Source: Halomonas salipaludis
Lineage (GTDB): Bacteria > Pseudomonadota > Gammaproteobacteria > Pseudomonadales > Halomonadaceae
Assembly (NCBI RefSeq): GCF_002286975.1
Contig: NZ_NSKB01000005.1
Location: 186,001 to 250,000 of the forward strand
Length of the DNA stretch: 64,000 nucleotides
Direction of reading: 5' to 3'
This document shows positions 25,718 to 42,979 of this stretch, piece by piece (the first letter of the stretch is position 1; each line of letters opens with the position of its first letter). The position numbers and the translations under genes were made by a program. The notes below the pieces were generated by a model, which was given only the letters and a program-made list of their open reading frames with translations, searched no databases and was not told the DNA's origin.

Positions 25718-25807
25718 GCCTGTCGTGGCGGTAGTGCCGCGCTTTTGGTTGCTCTGCTATCATCGAGCCTCGCCCCTTTCCATTCTCCTGCTGCCGGAGC
25801 GCGGCCC

Positions 25808-27121
25808 TTGAATACTCGCTTTCCCTTCGTCGACTGGTTCCGTAACTCCTCGCCGTATATCAATGCGCACCGCGGGCGAACCTTCGTCATCCTGATCGAG
25901 GGCGAGGCCATGGCGCAGGGGCGAGGCGAACAGCTGATCCAGGACCTGGCGCTGCTGCACACCCTGGGCGTGCGGCTGGTGGTGGTGTTCGGCATTCGGC
26001 CCCAGGTCAACGCCGCGCTCGAGGCCGCGGGGGTCACCCCCACCCGTCACGACGGCCGCTGGATCGCCGACGCCGACATCATGGCCTGCGTCGAGCGGGT
26101 CGCCGCCGAGCAGCGGCTGTGGCTGGAGGCGCGCCTGTCGCTGGGGCTGCCCAACACGCCGCTGCACGGCGTCGAGCTGACCGCGGTCTCCGGCAACCTG
26201 GTGATGGCCAAACCGCTGGGCGTGCGCGAGGGTGTCGACTACGACCACAGTGGCGAGGTGCGCCGGGTGCGTGCCGCGGCGGTCCAGGCGCTGCTCGAGC
26301 AGGGCGCGCTGGTGCTGCTGCCGCCGCTGGGCTTCTCGAGCACCGGCGAGGTCTTCGACCTGGATGCTTCTGAGGTTGCCCAGCAGGCGGCGGTGGCGCT
26401 CAAGGCCGACAAGCTGATCCTGCTCGGCGAAGCCGACGGCCTGCACGACGAGAGCGGTGCCCTGCAGCGCCAGCTGACCCCCGCCGAAGCCGAGCCGCTG
26501 CGTCGCCGCTCGCCGCCGGGCAGCGAGCTCGATCGCCATCTCGCCGCGGCCTGCGGTGCGGCGCGCTTCGGCGTGGCACGTACCCATCTGCTGTCGTGGC
26601 ACGACCACGACGCCCTGCTCGGCGAGCTGTTCACTCGCGACGGCGTCGGCACCATGATTACCCAGCACCGCTACGAGCAGCTGCGTGCCGCACAGCTCGG
26701 CGATATCGCCGGCCTGCTCGAGCTGCTCGAGCCCCTCGAGCGGCGCGGCATGCTGGTGGCCCGCTCCCGCGAGCGCCTCGAGCACGAGATCGACGACTAC
26801 CTGGTGATCGAGCGCGACGGCATGATCATCGGCTGTGCGGCGCTGCACGCCTTCCCCGAGGCGCAGATGGCCGAGCTGGCCTGTGTGGCGGTGCATGACG
26901 ACTATCGGCGCGGCGCCCGGGGCGGGCTGCTGCTGGCCGAGACCGAGCGCCGCGCCAGGCGCCAGGGGCTGACCTCGCTGTTCGCGCTGACCACCCACAC
27001 CACCCACTGGTTCTTCGAGCACGGCTTCCGCCTGGCCGAGCTCAGCGAGCTGCCGAACCTCAAGCGCGATGCCTACAATCACGCGCGCAAGTCCAAGATC
27101 CTGCTTAAGCCGCTGGTCTAG
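25808..27121 (+). CDS. argA: N-acetylglutamate synthase ArgA
   Basis: 437 residues from a TTG start: an N-terminal amino-acid-kinase-like regulatory domain (~1-285; FVDWFRNSSPYINAHRGRTF, LVVVFGIRPQVNAAL) and a C-terminal GNAT acetyltransferase domain (~290-437; VHDDYRRGARGGLLL, HGFRLAELSELP). It catalyses the first step of arginine synthesis and is normally feedback-inhibited by arginine through the AAK domain. The TTG at 25808 is preferred over upstream frame codons because it gives the family N-terminus; a GGAGCG site lies just ahead. It ends before a hairpin. Confidence 0.94.
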   Translation: MNTRFPFVDWFRNSSPYINAHRGRTFVILIEGEAMAQGRGEQLIQDLALLHTLGVRLVVVFGIRPQVNAALEAAGVTPTRHDGRWIADADIMACVERVAAEQRLWLEARLSLGLPNTPLHGVELTAVSGNLVMAKPLGVREGVDYDHSGEVRRVRAAAVQALLEQGALVLLPPLGFSSTGEVFDLDASEVAQQAAVALKADKLILLGEADGLHDESGALQRQLTPAEAEPLRRRSPPGSELDRHLAAACGAARFGVARTHLLSWHDHDALLGELFTRDGVGTMITQHRYEQLRAAQLGDIAGLLELLEPLERRGMLVARSRERLEHEIDDYLVIERDGMIIGCAALHAFPEAQMAELACVAVHDDYRRGARGGLLLAETERRARRQGLTSLFALTTHTTHWFFEHGFRLAELSELPNLKRDAYNHARKSKILLKPLV

Positions 27122-27128
27122 CCGCGGG

Positions 27129-27164
27129 GCCGGCCTGTCGCAAAAATGCGGCAGGTCGGCTTGG
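27129..27164 (+). terminator. Terminator-like hairpin after argA
   Basis: A 14-bp stem with two G-U pairs (27129-27142 with 27147-27160, loop AAAA) starts eight bases after the argA stop. The tail is TTGGGG, so it is not a strong U-tract. The left arm also contains TGTCGC, a motif repeated in the upstream sites that follow. Confidence 0.55.
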
Positions 27165-27166
27165 GG

Positions 27167-27183
27167 TGTCGCCAGATGGCAAC
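27167..27183 (+). promoter_or_regulatory. Putative GlrR upstream activating site 1
   Basis: TGTCGCCAGATGGCAAC. It matches 14 of 17 positions of a second copy in the opposite orientation at 27233-27249. The form TGTC-N10-AAC(C/A) is close to TGTC-N10-GACA, the site known for the enterobacterial regulator GlrR, whose gene lies downstream. It is centred ~208 bp upstream of the predicted sigma-54 start. Confidence 0.55.
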
Positions 27184-27232
27184 CTTGCAAGGCATTGATT
27201 TTAAAATAATATCTTATTTGTCGCATATTAAT

Positions 27233-27249
27233 GTTGCCGTATGGCGACA
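27233..27249 (-). promoter_or_regulatory. Putative GlrR upstream activating site 2
   Basis: Read on the minus strand this is TGTCGCCATACGGCAAC followed by A, which gives TGTC-N10-AACA, one base from the TGTC-N10-GACA form. It is the inverted partner of the site at 27167-27183, ~66 bp apart centre to centre. A third TGTCGC half-site is at 27219-27224. Confidence 0.55.
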
Positions 27250-27322
27250 TAAATGCCGGTAATTTGCCTCGATCTGACGATTTTTCGCACCCCATCTCGA
27301 ACTGGCACTCTTTCCTTGTTTT

Positions 27323-27335
27323 TAACTATTTGATT
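27323..27335 (-). promoter_or_regulatory. Putative IHF binding site
   Basis: On the minus strand the sequence is AATCAAATAGTTA, a 13/13 match to the IHF consensus WATCAANNNNTTR, in an AT-rich tract. It sits between the upstream activating sites and the sigma-54 promoter, where DNA bending is needed for enhancer contact. Confidence 0.65.
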
Positions 27336-27356
27336 TTAAAAGATCATCGCGATTTT

Positions 27357-27372
27357 TGGCACGCTCGTCGCA
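27357..27372 (+). promoter_or_regulatory. Sigma-54 promoter (-24/-12)
   Basis: TGGCACG-N4-TCGCA with GG at 27358-27359 and GC at 27370-27371, the exact GG-N10-GC spacing. It differs from the consensus TGGCACGRNNNTTGCW only at the R and one T. The predicted transcription start is near 27383. No coding gene starts close downstream; the promoter faces a structured non-coding stretch. Confidence 0.75.
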
Positions 27373-27382
27373 ATGTATAGGG

Positions 27383-27840
27383 CGAGCAAGGGAAACGGAT
27401 CAATACGGCTCGATCCGCTTCCCGGGCCGGACCAGCAGGGCAAGGATCACCACCCTGTGCCACTTGCTCACTGGACCGGTCAGCGTCTGCTCCACGCGAT
27501 GTGTGACTAAGGTTGCGATGAGACGAGGTGCCGCCAGTACGGCAAGGAATGGCACCGTAAGGGCAAGGATGCCCCGGCATGGATGCCTCATCCCCTGCGG
27601 GGGATCGAATTCAGGATCATGGCGCGATGAGCGGCATGATGAAGAATGAAGCCGAGTGGCGTGCCACTCCAAAGTGCGACGGCGGATCCTGGCATGATGA
27701 GAATGCCGTCGCATGGCTTCCGGACCTTCGGGTCCCCAGAGTGCGATGATGGATGATCCGGCCAGGCGGCTAATGCATCTCAATCTCTACCCCTTCAGTT
27801 CCCTGCGTACCTTGGGCCGGCTCTGCCGGCCCTCTTTTTT
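27383..27840 (+). ncRNA. Candidate sigma-54/GlrR-dependent small RNA (GlmY position)
   Basis: A ~458-nt interval without a convincing reading frame runs from the predicted sigma-54 start to a strong terminator. It folds into several clear hairpins: 27390-27401 with 27412-27423 (one mismatch); 27427-27435 with 27471-27479, enclosing GCAAG/CTTGC; GAGTGGC/GCCACTC; a perfect 9-bp stem at 27675-27683 with 27705-27713; and GGACC-TTCG-GGTCC. GGCATGATGA(A)GAATG occurs twice (~27634 and ~27691). In enterobacteria the GlmY RNA occupies this same place upstream of glrK and is driven by GlrR, IHF and sigma-54. Sequence similarity to GlmY is not evident and the length is more than twice GlmY, so homology is unproven. 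Confidence 0.55.
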
Positions 27841-27841
27841 T
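27814..27841 (+). terminator. Strong rho-independent terminator upstream of glrK
   Basis: Perfect 8-bp GC stem GGGCCGGC (27814-27821) / GCCGGCCC (27825-27832), loop TCT, followed by TC and seven T's. It separates the predicted RNA from glrK, 86 bases further on. Confidence 0.88.
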
Positions 27842-27926
27842 GCCCGCCGGCAATAACGACAAATCTGTTATCCTGTGTGGAACACCCATGACGCCGCCTC
27901 TTTTCCTTTTACATAGAACATTGGTC

Positions 27927-29435
27927 ATGACCACCCAGGTCTCGCGCCGCTGGCGCCCCCGCTCGCTGCTGCAGCTGGTGCTGCTAGCCTTCATCGTGGT
28001 GATGCTGCCACTAGGTGTGCTGATGTTTCAGGCTGGGCAGGCACTCTCCGAACTCACCCGCCTGGCCGACGTTAGCGCCCGCCAGGCGGTGGAAGAGACG
28101 CGCCGTGCCCGCGAGCTCTCCAGCCTGGCGCTGGAGATGGAACGCAGCGCGCGGCAGTACGCAGTGATCGAGCAGGAAGGCTTGATGGAGATCTATCTCG
28201 AGCGCGTCGAGGAGTTCGGCGACCTGCTCGCCCAGCATCGCCGGCTGCTGCCCGATGACCCGCACATGCTGGCGCTGGTCGACCAGCTCGGCCTGCTGCG
28301 CAGCATGCCCGAGCTGCCCATCGAAGAGTTCCGCGAGGAGCTGTTCGCCTTCGTGCCCTTCGCCGCCAACACCGAGGCGGTACGCCGTGCCACCAACCGG
28401 CATATCGATGCGCGCATCGACACCATTCGCGAGCAGGCCAGTAGCGTCCAGACCCAGCTATGGCTGCAGACCGCGGCACTGGTGTCGGCAAGCCTGCTGC
28501 TGATGCTGCTATTCACCTGGCTGATCATCCGCCCCATCCGGCAGCTCGAACGGCGCATCCTGGGGCTCGGCAACAGCGGCACGGCGGCGCCGGCCAAGAC
28601 CATCCAGGGCCCGGCCGAGCTGGTCAGCCTCGGCGATCGGCTCGACTGGCTGTCATCGCGGCTCAGCGAGCTGGAGGCCCAGAAACAGCAGTTCCTGCGC
28701 CATATGTCCCACGAACTCAAGACCCCGCTGGCCAGCGTGCGCGAGGGCACTGCGCTACTCAGCGACGGCGTGGCCGGCGAGATCACCCCGCGCCAGTTGG
28801 AGATCCTCGAGTTGATCGACAGCAGCGGCAAGGAGCTGCAGACCCTGATCGAGCAGTTGCTCGACTACAATCTGCTGCAGCACGACAAGGGCACCAGGGT
28901 GGTGCGTTTCGACCTGGCTACCGTGGTCAAGGAGCTGCTGGCCAAGCACCAGCTGGCCCTCGAGCACAAGGAGATGCGTGTCGAGTGGTTCGACAAGCCC
29001 CTCGACTGGCAGGCCGATCGCATTGCCACCGGGCGTATTCTCGACAATTTGCTGTCCAATGCCATTGCCTATGGCGAAGACGGCGGCGAATTGGCGATCC
29101 GCGCCTGGGTCCGCGGCGAACGGCTGTTCGTCGAGGTGGCCAACAGCGGTGAGCCGATCGCCGAGGAAGACCGCCCGCGGCTGTTCGAGGCGTTCTACCA
29201 GGGCCGGGCGCGCCGCAAGGGCCCGCTCAAGGGGTCGGGGATCGGCCTGTCGGTGGCCGCCGACTGCGCCCGCGCCCAGCACGGTGAGCTAATGCTGGTC
29301 GAAGACAACCAGTTGCCGGTGTGTTTTCGCCTGGTGCTGCCCTGGATAGATGCCGATGCCAGCGGGCAAGAGACGAACAATACGACCTTGATGCTGCCCA
29401 CAGAGGCGGCGAGCTTACACGCAAGGAACAACTGA
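27927..29435 (+). CDS. glrK: Sensor histidine kinase GlrK (QseE)
   Basis: ~502 residues from the ATG at 27927: a transmembrane helix (~13-35), a ~150-residue periplasmic helical domain, a second helix (~180-200), HAMP, a DHp helix with RHMSHELKTPLASVREG (H262), and an HATPase with DNLLSNAIAYGEDGG and GSGIGLSVA. The layout and the qseG-glrR neighbours identify it as GlrK. The partner regulator activates sigma-54 promoters, and the site upstream of the predicted RNA is the obvious candidate. The upstream frame from 27840 overlaps the terminator, so the later start is preferred. Confidence 0.9.
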   Translation: MTTQVSRRWRPRSLLQLVLLAFIVVMLPLGVLMFQAGQALSELTRLADVSARQAVEETRRARELSSLALEMERSARQYAVIEQEGLMEIYLERVEEFGDLLAQHRRLLPDDPHMLALVDQLGLLRSMPELPIEEFREELFAFVPFAANTEAVRRATNRHIDARIDTIREQASSVQTQLWLQTAALVSASLLLMLLFTWLIIRPIRQLERRILGLGNSGTAAPAKTIQGPAELVSLGDRLDWLSSRLSELEAQKQQFLRHMSHELKTPLASVREGTALLSDGVAGEITPRQLEILELIDSSGKELQTLIEQLLDYNLLQHDKGTRVVRFDLATVVKELLAKHQLALEHKEMRVEWFDKPLDWQADRIATGRILDNLLSNAIAYGEDGGELAIRAWVRGERLFVEVANSGEPIAEEDRPRLFEAFYQGRARRKGPLKGSGIGLSVAADCARAQHGELMLVEDNQLPVCFRLVLPWIDADASGQETNNTTLMLPTEAASLHARNN

Positions 29436-29438
29436 ACC

Positions 29439-29975
29439 ATGAACTATAGAACACTGCTGTCACTCGCCGCGGTGATGCTGCTGGTGGGATGTGAAGCGTT
29501 TCCTGCCATGCAGCAGAGCGAGGTGGAACCAGAGCCAGAGCTGCCCACCCAGTGCAATGAGCCGACTCCTACCCTGGTTGAGAGTCCCTGCCTGGTGGAT
29601 GCCTGGGTGGCCTATGGCCTGGCCTCGCAGCGCGGCGACCGCGAGTGGCGGGATGCGCAGATCGAGCAGCTGCAGGGCAGCACGCCGGAGCAGCACCTGC
29701 AGCGCGCGGTGGTGCTGGCCTGGGGCAGTGAGCGGCAATGGAGCGAGGCCGCCGAGCTACTGCGCGACGACCTGCATGCCGCACCCAGCGACCTGCAGCC
29801 GCTGCTGCGCTACTGGCTCAACGAAGTAGAGGGGCGACGCGCCTTGGCCAACCGGCTCGAGCGCAGCGAAAGCGAACGTCGCGGCCTGGCTGAAGAAAAC
29901 GAGTCGCTGGCCGAGAAGCTCGAGGCGCTGACCGATATCGAGCAGAGCATCAACCTGCGCCAATTCTCGCCCTGA
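29439..29975 (+). CDS. qseG: QseG-like outer-membrane lipoprotein
   Basis: 178 residues with a lipoprotein signal (MLLVGCEAFP; the lipobox cysteine at residue 17) and a largely helical, Glu/Leu-rich body ending in a coiled-coil-like segment (ENESLAEKLEALTDIE). It lies between glrK and glrR exactly as qseG (yfhG) does in enterobacteria, where QseG interacts with QseE at the periplasmic side. The identification rests on position and lipoprotein layout more than on strong motifs. Confidence 0.75.
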   Translation: MNYRTLLSLAAVMLLVGCEAFPAMQQSEVEPEPELPTQCNEPTPTLVESPCLVDAWVAYGLASQRGDREWRDAQIEQLQGSTPEQHLQRAVVLAWGSERQWSEAAELLRDDLHAAPSDLQPLLRYWLNEVEGRRALANRLERSESERRGLAEENESLAEKLEALTDIEQSINLRQFSP

Positions 29976-30009: not shown

Positions 30010-31392
<1,383 letters not shown>

Positions 31393-42836: not shown

Positions 42837-42979
42837 GGACTGGTACCTTCGATCTCGTACCCTGAGTGATTATCGATTATCACTATCGTTGGTGCCTTGG
42901 CTACCGATGGGACGGGATTTCAGCAATCTCTTACAGCAATGTAAGCAATGTCTTACAGCGCTGTTTTGGTGATTCACAC

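Follow-up and report, generated by a model that had tools for sequence, protein, structure and literature searches.

A candidate sigma-54/GlrR-type small-RNA gene between argA and glrK in Halomonadaceae, with GGA hairpins and an invariant 3′ block

The spacer between argA and glrK very probably carries a small-RNA gene of the sigma-54/GlrR type, as judged from promoter parts, conservation, structure and copies, all of which are read directly in the sequences. The window, meaning the whole 64-kb stretch of DNA that was analysed, comes from a genome of 5.48 Mb with the gene order argA, spacer, glrK, a gene for a QseG-like lipoprotein, and glrR (Table 1). The spacer covers 27122–27887, that is 766 nt up to the ATG at 27888. 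We lean towards the reading that the RNA is one of a GlrK/GlrR-driven family that titrates CsrA and acts also through a block at its 3′ end. An RNA of the argA–glrK spacer is not described among the matches listed in a search of titles and abstract openings of the open-access literature, and the gene is apparently undescribed so far.

Table 1. Features of the argA–glrR region, in window coordinates
Feature	Position	Strand	Remarks
argA (N-acetylglutamate synthase)	25793–27121	+	NF003641, 579 bits against a cut-off of 344; candidate start
GlrR-type upstream site 1, TGTCGC-N6-GCGGCA	27136–27153	+	1 mismatch to TGTC-N10-GACA
GlrR-type upstream site 2, TGTCGCCAGATGGCAACC = TGTCGCCA-GAT-GGCAAC	27167–27184	+	inverted site
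Distal IHF match	27188–27200	-	exact consensus; between GlrR-type sites 2 and 3
TGTCGC half-site	27219–27224	+	read in the sequence
GlrR-type upstream site 3, TGTTGCCGTATGGCGACA = GTTGCC-GTA-TGGCGACA	27232–27249	+	inverted site
Promoter-proximal IHF match	27323–27335	-	13/13
Sigma-54 box TGGCACG-CTCG-TCGCA	27357–27372	+	1 mismatch to TGGCACG-N4-TTGCW
Putative small-RNA gene, ~459 nt	27383–27841	+	start predicted from the sigma-54 box
Hairpin CAGGG-caaggatcacca-CCCTG, AGGA in loop	27436–27457	+	kept in own genus
Highly conserved core GTCTGCTCC..GCGATGTGTGAC..GGTTGCGATGAGAC	27485–27524	+	alignment consensus
Hairpin, AAGGA in 3′ side internal loop	27527–27556	+	GGA invariant 49/49
Hairpin GGGC-AAGGAT-GCCC (CANGGANG motif)	27561–27574	+	GGA invariant 49/49
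Hairpin GGC-ATGGAT-GCC (CANGGANG motif)	27576–27587	+	GGA invariant 49/49
Invariant 3′ block AGTTCCCTGCGTA	27797–27809	+	77/77 modules
Intrinsic terminator	27814–27841	+	8 G-C pairs; GGGCCGGC..GCCGGCCC-T7 in alignment
Extended -10-like element TCTGTTATCCT	27864–27874	+	alignment consensus TGnTATnCT just 5′ of glrK
glrK	27888–29435	+	start 27888 or 27927; 42% identity to E. coli GlrK over 472 columns
QseG-like lipoprotein gene	29439–29975	+	assigned by position; 178 aa
glrR, sigma-54-dependent response regulator	30010–31392	+	NF011695 (GlrR, NCBIfam equivalog), 811.5 bits against a cut-off of 763 bits

The QseG-like protein matches E. coli QseG weakly (E 0.001, 30% identity over 81 columns). 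By eye its N-terminus resembles a signal peptide ending LVGC, and a search of Pfam and NCBIfam assigned it to no family.

The original prediction placed a sigma-54 promoter, an IHF match of 13/13, two inverted sites and TGTCGC half-sites in this spacer, and all of them were found. The distal IHF match is an addition to it. Counted in the window alone, the promoter patterns stand at chance level, with 15 sigma-54 matches against 14.7 expected and 21 matches to TGTC-N10-GACA against 19.0; it is the comparison across genomes that marks the sites as real. Sigma-54 sites with at most one mismatch number two in the 64 kb, and exact IHF matches two against 0.39 expected.

For the comparison, glrK upstream regions were taken from 77 genomes, 5 within the own genus and 72 elsewhere in the family, picked from 174 GlrR-bearing family genomes. 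The sigma-54 box, as TGGCA[CT][AG]-N4-T[CGT]GC[AT], is present in 75/77 of these orthologous spacers. With two tandem second copies the 75 spacers give 77 promoters, 70 of which contain half-sites of the form TGTCKC/GMGACA (127 sites, against 10.9 in shuffles). In 38/77 promoters an IHF-like core lies no more than 75 nt away from the sigma-54 box (2.0 in shuffles), and a distal one is found in 25/77 (1.6 in shuffles). TGTCGC-N6-GCGGCA at site 1 occurs in 5/5 own-genus genomes, and site 2 and the core of site 3, GTTG..GG.GAC, are recognisable in 8/8 spacers of one alignment. In the mechanism that we propose, GlrR would bind the three TGTCGC-type sites, IHF would bend the DNA, and sigma-54 RNA polymerase would transcribe the small RNA up to its own terminator. 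Transcription and its dependence on GlrR, IHF and RpoN are what we infer from this layout.

The two spacers without the box are L104 and L087. L104 belongs to a 2.9-Mb genome (G059) in which glrK and glrR are kept and argA terminates some 10 nt 5′ of the likely glrK start; argA extends nearly to glrK, and the RNA gene is therefore gone. In the genome of L087 (G042), argA, the RNA and a glrK are located at another place (L369). This genome has two glrK-like genes, one beside argA and the RNA and the other beside the sole glrR match, whose listing shows one internal stop.

The upstream region resembles the one that precedes glmY in E. coli K-12, where three TGTC-N10-GACA sites occur and the IHF core CATTGATTTTAA separates the second site from the third; TGTC-N10-GACA is given as the QseF/GlrR consensus site, together with IHF, at glmY in an excerpt of PMC8745638. 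Local alignment of the GlrR/IHF region with the glmY enhancer scored 56, whereas 300 shuffles averaged 22.7 and reached 41 at best. The window sites at 27136, 27167 and 27232 pair in order with the three E. coli sites. The second of them aligns with TGTCGC-N6-GCGACA of glmY, and the distal IHF match with CATTGATTTTAA. In this comparison p ≤ 0.05 is attained by 37 of the 77 promoters from the family, and 11 beat 100/100 shuffles, so that the full enhancer likeness is not universal. Shared with GlmY are thus three TGTC-N10-GACA-type sites, two of which flank an IHF site, together with a sigma-54 promoter (here at the level of sequence), alignable over about 115 bp, and shared with GlmY/GlmZ of the Enterobacterales is the place of the gene just upstream of glrK-qseG-glrR. 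We infer that the Halomonadaceae and E. coli glmY enhancers share common descent.

The RNA behind the enhancer is different. GlmY, described as conserved in Enterobacteriaceae in an excerpt of PMC4908143, is unrelated to it in sequence and measures 184 nt rather than about 459 nt. ANGGA hairpins, an invariant 3′ block and extra copies in some Halomonadaceae genomes further distinguish the window RNA from GlmY/GlmZ, and no sign of glmS pairing was seen. The original prediction of a GlrR-controlled RNA upstream of glrK holds at the sequence level, and the enhancer aligns with that of glmY; its suggestion of possible functional equivalence to GlmY is not supported. The reading of the RNA as a functional counterpart of GlmY/GlmZ that works on RapZ and glmS would suit the same place before glrK, the same enhancer layout and the tandem copies in both genomes of one genus (L039, L040). 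However, an Rfam cmscan of the window at E up to 10 gave no GlmY or GlmZ match, and local alignment of the RNA with E. coli GlmY and GlmZ was no better than with shuffles (12 comparisons, p 0.105–1.0). The glmS leaders vary between genomes, and no common seed complement was seen in them: reading the glmS upstream regions of 29 of 30 loci by eye showed nothing conserved that would pair with the 3′ block, the L143 region having a partial CTGCAGGGA. A GlmY/GlmZ homologue was rejected on the Rfam, alignment and glmS leader results, and a functional counterpart is very unlikely. Seven weak Rfam matches in the window, all below the gathering score, were taken as chance or terminator likeness; they include suhB/mmgR and SorY over the 3′ end of the RNA.

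The RNA is rich in hairpins, as predicted. The fold of 27383–27841 beats 100 shuffles with a z of -3.25, and the strong terminator expected at its end is in place; one terminator was found, against 0.7 expected in shuffles. In an alignment of the RNA from 75 spacers the conserved parts are the core ending GGTTGCGATGAGAC, the run of GGA hairpins, and AGTTCCCTGCGTA with the terminator. An exact copy of the core GCGATGAGAC is found in 64 of the 75 promoter-bearing spacers. Predicted transcripts are about 150–560 nt long at the argA–glrK locus of relatives and about 100–330 nt at other loci. Within the own genus, a large portion of the 3′ middle domain is missing from L004, which retains the promoter, the GGA hairpins and the 3′ block, and in 2/5 genomes (L003, L005) the GGA of the hairpin at 27436 is changed to GCA.

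Lying directly 5′ of glrK, the spacer transcript might also be mainly a 5′ leader that controls glrK, and co-transcription of glmY and qseEGF in Proteus is stated in an excerpt of PMC8745638. This is a most improbable reading, as the transcript ends in a strong terminator that is followed by a conserved -10-like element, and copies at other loci have the same type of promoter. The element TCTGTTATCCT is possibly a separate promoter for glrK; it is absent from the list of a sigma-70 scan.

The GGA hairpins suggest a function for the RNA. Hairpins with ANGGA loops would bind CsrA and titrate it, and it is reasonably probable that the window RNA does so. The motif CANGGANG occurs 179 times in the 77 spacer bodies against 14.7 in shuffles, the bodies being related orthologues whose counts are not independent, and 11 times in 18 bodies of extra copies against 1.4. 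GGA hairpins number 195 against 108.7 in the spacer bodies and 29 against 7.4 in the extra bodies. The stems of the extra bodies differ, and among their loop triplets GGA shows the greatest excess (32 against 7.7). The spacer bodies have 199 GGA loops against 110, with CTC, TTC, TCG, CCT and CTT ranking higher, and GGA triplets overall are not enriched in them (610 against 730 in shuffles).

An alignment of the GGA domain comprised 49 of 68 extracted domains. All three GGA are invariant in it, and its 15 pairs are 98% formed. Double changes occur at 6 pairs, in 30 cells against 6.4 when shuffled, for a structure that was drawn from one aligned sequence and is therefore favoured in the slide control. 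The hairpin at 27527 has compensatory changes in both helices, and that at 27561 is paired in 100% of cells with double changes at two pairs; the stem at 27576 is invariant, which makes covariation uninformative there. Alignment of the spacer from relatives, proposed with the original prediction as a check, upheld both the promoter and the hairpins.

GGA hairpins are lacking in some members. None is present in 2/77 spacer bodies (L108, L040b) and 6/18 extra bodies, five of the latter six being also without any ANGGA. Since the shortest members have no GGA hairpins, CsrA binding cannot be the function common to all.

CsrA is encoded in 21/21 genomes. The Rfam CsrB model exceeded its gathering score in 0/21 genomes, with weak sub-threshold matches in G191 and G008 and none in the own genome. 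E. coli McaS acts by base pairing and also titrates CsrA by means of GGA motifs; it differs from the window RNA in control, sequence and phylogeny. Repeated ANGGA-loop hairpins and a CsrA in the genome are shared with decoys of the CsrB/RsmZ type, the ANGGA hairpin being the CsrA decoy motif in an excerpt of PMC7366521. The known decoys are preceded by a Gac box, whereas a sigma-54/GlrR promoter is found here, and the window RNA has only about 3–4 sites plus the invariant 3′ block. Searching the own genome for TGTAAG-N6-CTTACA with at most one mismatch gave seven places, none of them at the argA–glrK locus.

Gac-type boxes were also seen about 10–15 kb from csrA, with GGA-motif RNAs behind them in relatives and in the own genome (L312, L314, L325, L332–L337; L332 belongs to the own genome). 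Hairpins of the kind found in the spacer RNA recur in these RNAs, in favour of the CsrA reading. By eye these boxes adjoin an enolase-like reading frame, most clearly in L314, and the RNAs behind them fall below the Rfam CsrB cut-off. These RNAs make it probable that there is a decoy under Gac control too. They are probably the Gac-driven decoy of the family, missing from the list in the excerpt of PMC7366521, where the table entry for decoy sRNAs in Halomonas anticariensis reads unknown. The window itself has a perfect box, TGTAAG-N6-CTTACA, at 42940–42957, but an RNA with GGA hairpins is not evident behind it.

The 3′ modules were located by the 9-mer TTCCCTGCG inside the 13-mer, and the whole 13-mer AGTTCCCTGCGTA is exact in all 77 modules of the 75 promoter-bearing spacers. 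The block is predicted to be only partly unpaired (0.46, against 0.34 for the bodies). Placed beside the terminator, AGUUCCCUGCGUA may serve either as an antisense seed or as a protein-binding site. In L121 and L124, the shortest members, a hairpin loop UUCCCUU repeats the core of the block.

The block raises the alternative of an RNA that works by base pairing through its 3′ block, in which case the GGA hairpins would be incidental or sites at which CsrA controls the RNA. The block is common to all sigma-54-type members read, the short ones without GGA hairpins included, it adjoins the terminator, and a few extra copies have only one or two base changes in it. Base pairing by itself leaves unexplained that the GGA hairpins are kept by compensatory change and recur on other stems in the extra copies. 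It also meets no conserved perfect complement: perfect 10-nt complements outside the sRNA loci of 7 genomes number 40, compared with 96 for the reversed control, and no orthologous pair of targets was found among the 22/40 complement sites compared. We consider this alternative rather unlikely, and keep to CsrA titration combined with a role of the block.

Particular targets were sought as well. Thirty CGCAGGGAAC loci were read, of which 8 are the sRNAs themselves. Three of the other 22 sites lie 5–8 nt before an ATG, in front of genes named by eye for a PilC-like protein (L351), a nuclease-related protein (L355) and a secretion-type outer-membrane protein (L362). Perfect CGCAGGGAAC sites were rejected as targets, being fewer than in the reversed control and with no two orthologous among the 22 compared. 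The csrA leader was rejected too; 19 leaders read by eye (20 fetched) are conserved 5′ of the start codon and contain no convincing complement of the block.

The 13-mer follows GlrR through the family. With a GlrR threshold of E ≤ 1e-120, 171 of 275 family genomes have both GlrR and the exact 13-mer, 3 have GlrR alone (G059, G098, G135), 3 the 13-mer alone (G156, G192, G236) and 98 neither. The 13-mer is thus present in 171/174 GlrR-bearing genomes, and the three cases without GlrR are no more than chance, as the reversed control matches 28/101 GlrR-free genomes. In the order outside the family, the 13-mer occurs in 12/372 genomes and the control pattern in 22/372. Scanning with a 19-base pattern gave at least 119 stretches, and 79/80 loci among the matches listed are from Halomonadaceae. 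The remaining one, in a Chloroflexi MAG (L201), has by eye neither promoter nor terminator and looks like chance. Phage and plasmid collections gave no match to the 3′ module.

The window RNA would belong to a family with further copies at other loci in some of the Halomonadaceae. In 35/275 genomes the exact 13-mer is present two to five times, and in the window's genome once. Among 20 extra loci that were read, a sigma-54 box is found by pattern within 480 nt in 18 (the exceptions are L120 and L122), and 16 of these 18 promoters have GlrR half-sites, 27 in all against 2.6 in shuffles. In both genomes of genus g3 (L039, L040) two tandem sigma-54-driven RNAs lie between argA and glrK, the second being short and poor in GGA hairpins, with the same 3′ block.

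Eleven further loci comprise one linked to argA (L369), three of the sigma-54 type (L372, L377, L379) and seven with the 13-mer and no box. The block is therefore not confined to GlrR-type RNAs. In genus g7 (L370, L373, L374, L375, L376, L378) there is a second kind of element, in which a long hairpin, for example CTACCCGGTAA..TTACCGGGTAG, is immediately followed by the same TTCCCTGCGTAC block without a sigma-54 box, and Rfam gave one weak match only on these hairpin and block elements. L371 has the block and a terminator-like end in a different context again.

Comparison of enterobacteria with Halomonadaceae suggests a wider picture, for and against which we see an even balance: the GlrK/GlrR–sigma-54–IHF switch would be conserved and the driven RNA not, and in Halomonadaceae a scattered, multiplying sRNA family would feed into Csr, its 3′ block being read by a common partner. 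If this is true, GlrK/GlrR would be an older controller of unrelated sRNAs, and the RNA would be replaceable behind a conserved enhancer. CsrA titration would then be possible under sigma-54 control. The 13-nt block provides a precise handle for the search for its partner, and the group has industrial strains among its members, Halomonas bluephagenesis being an example.
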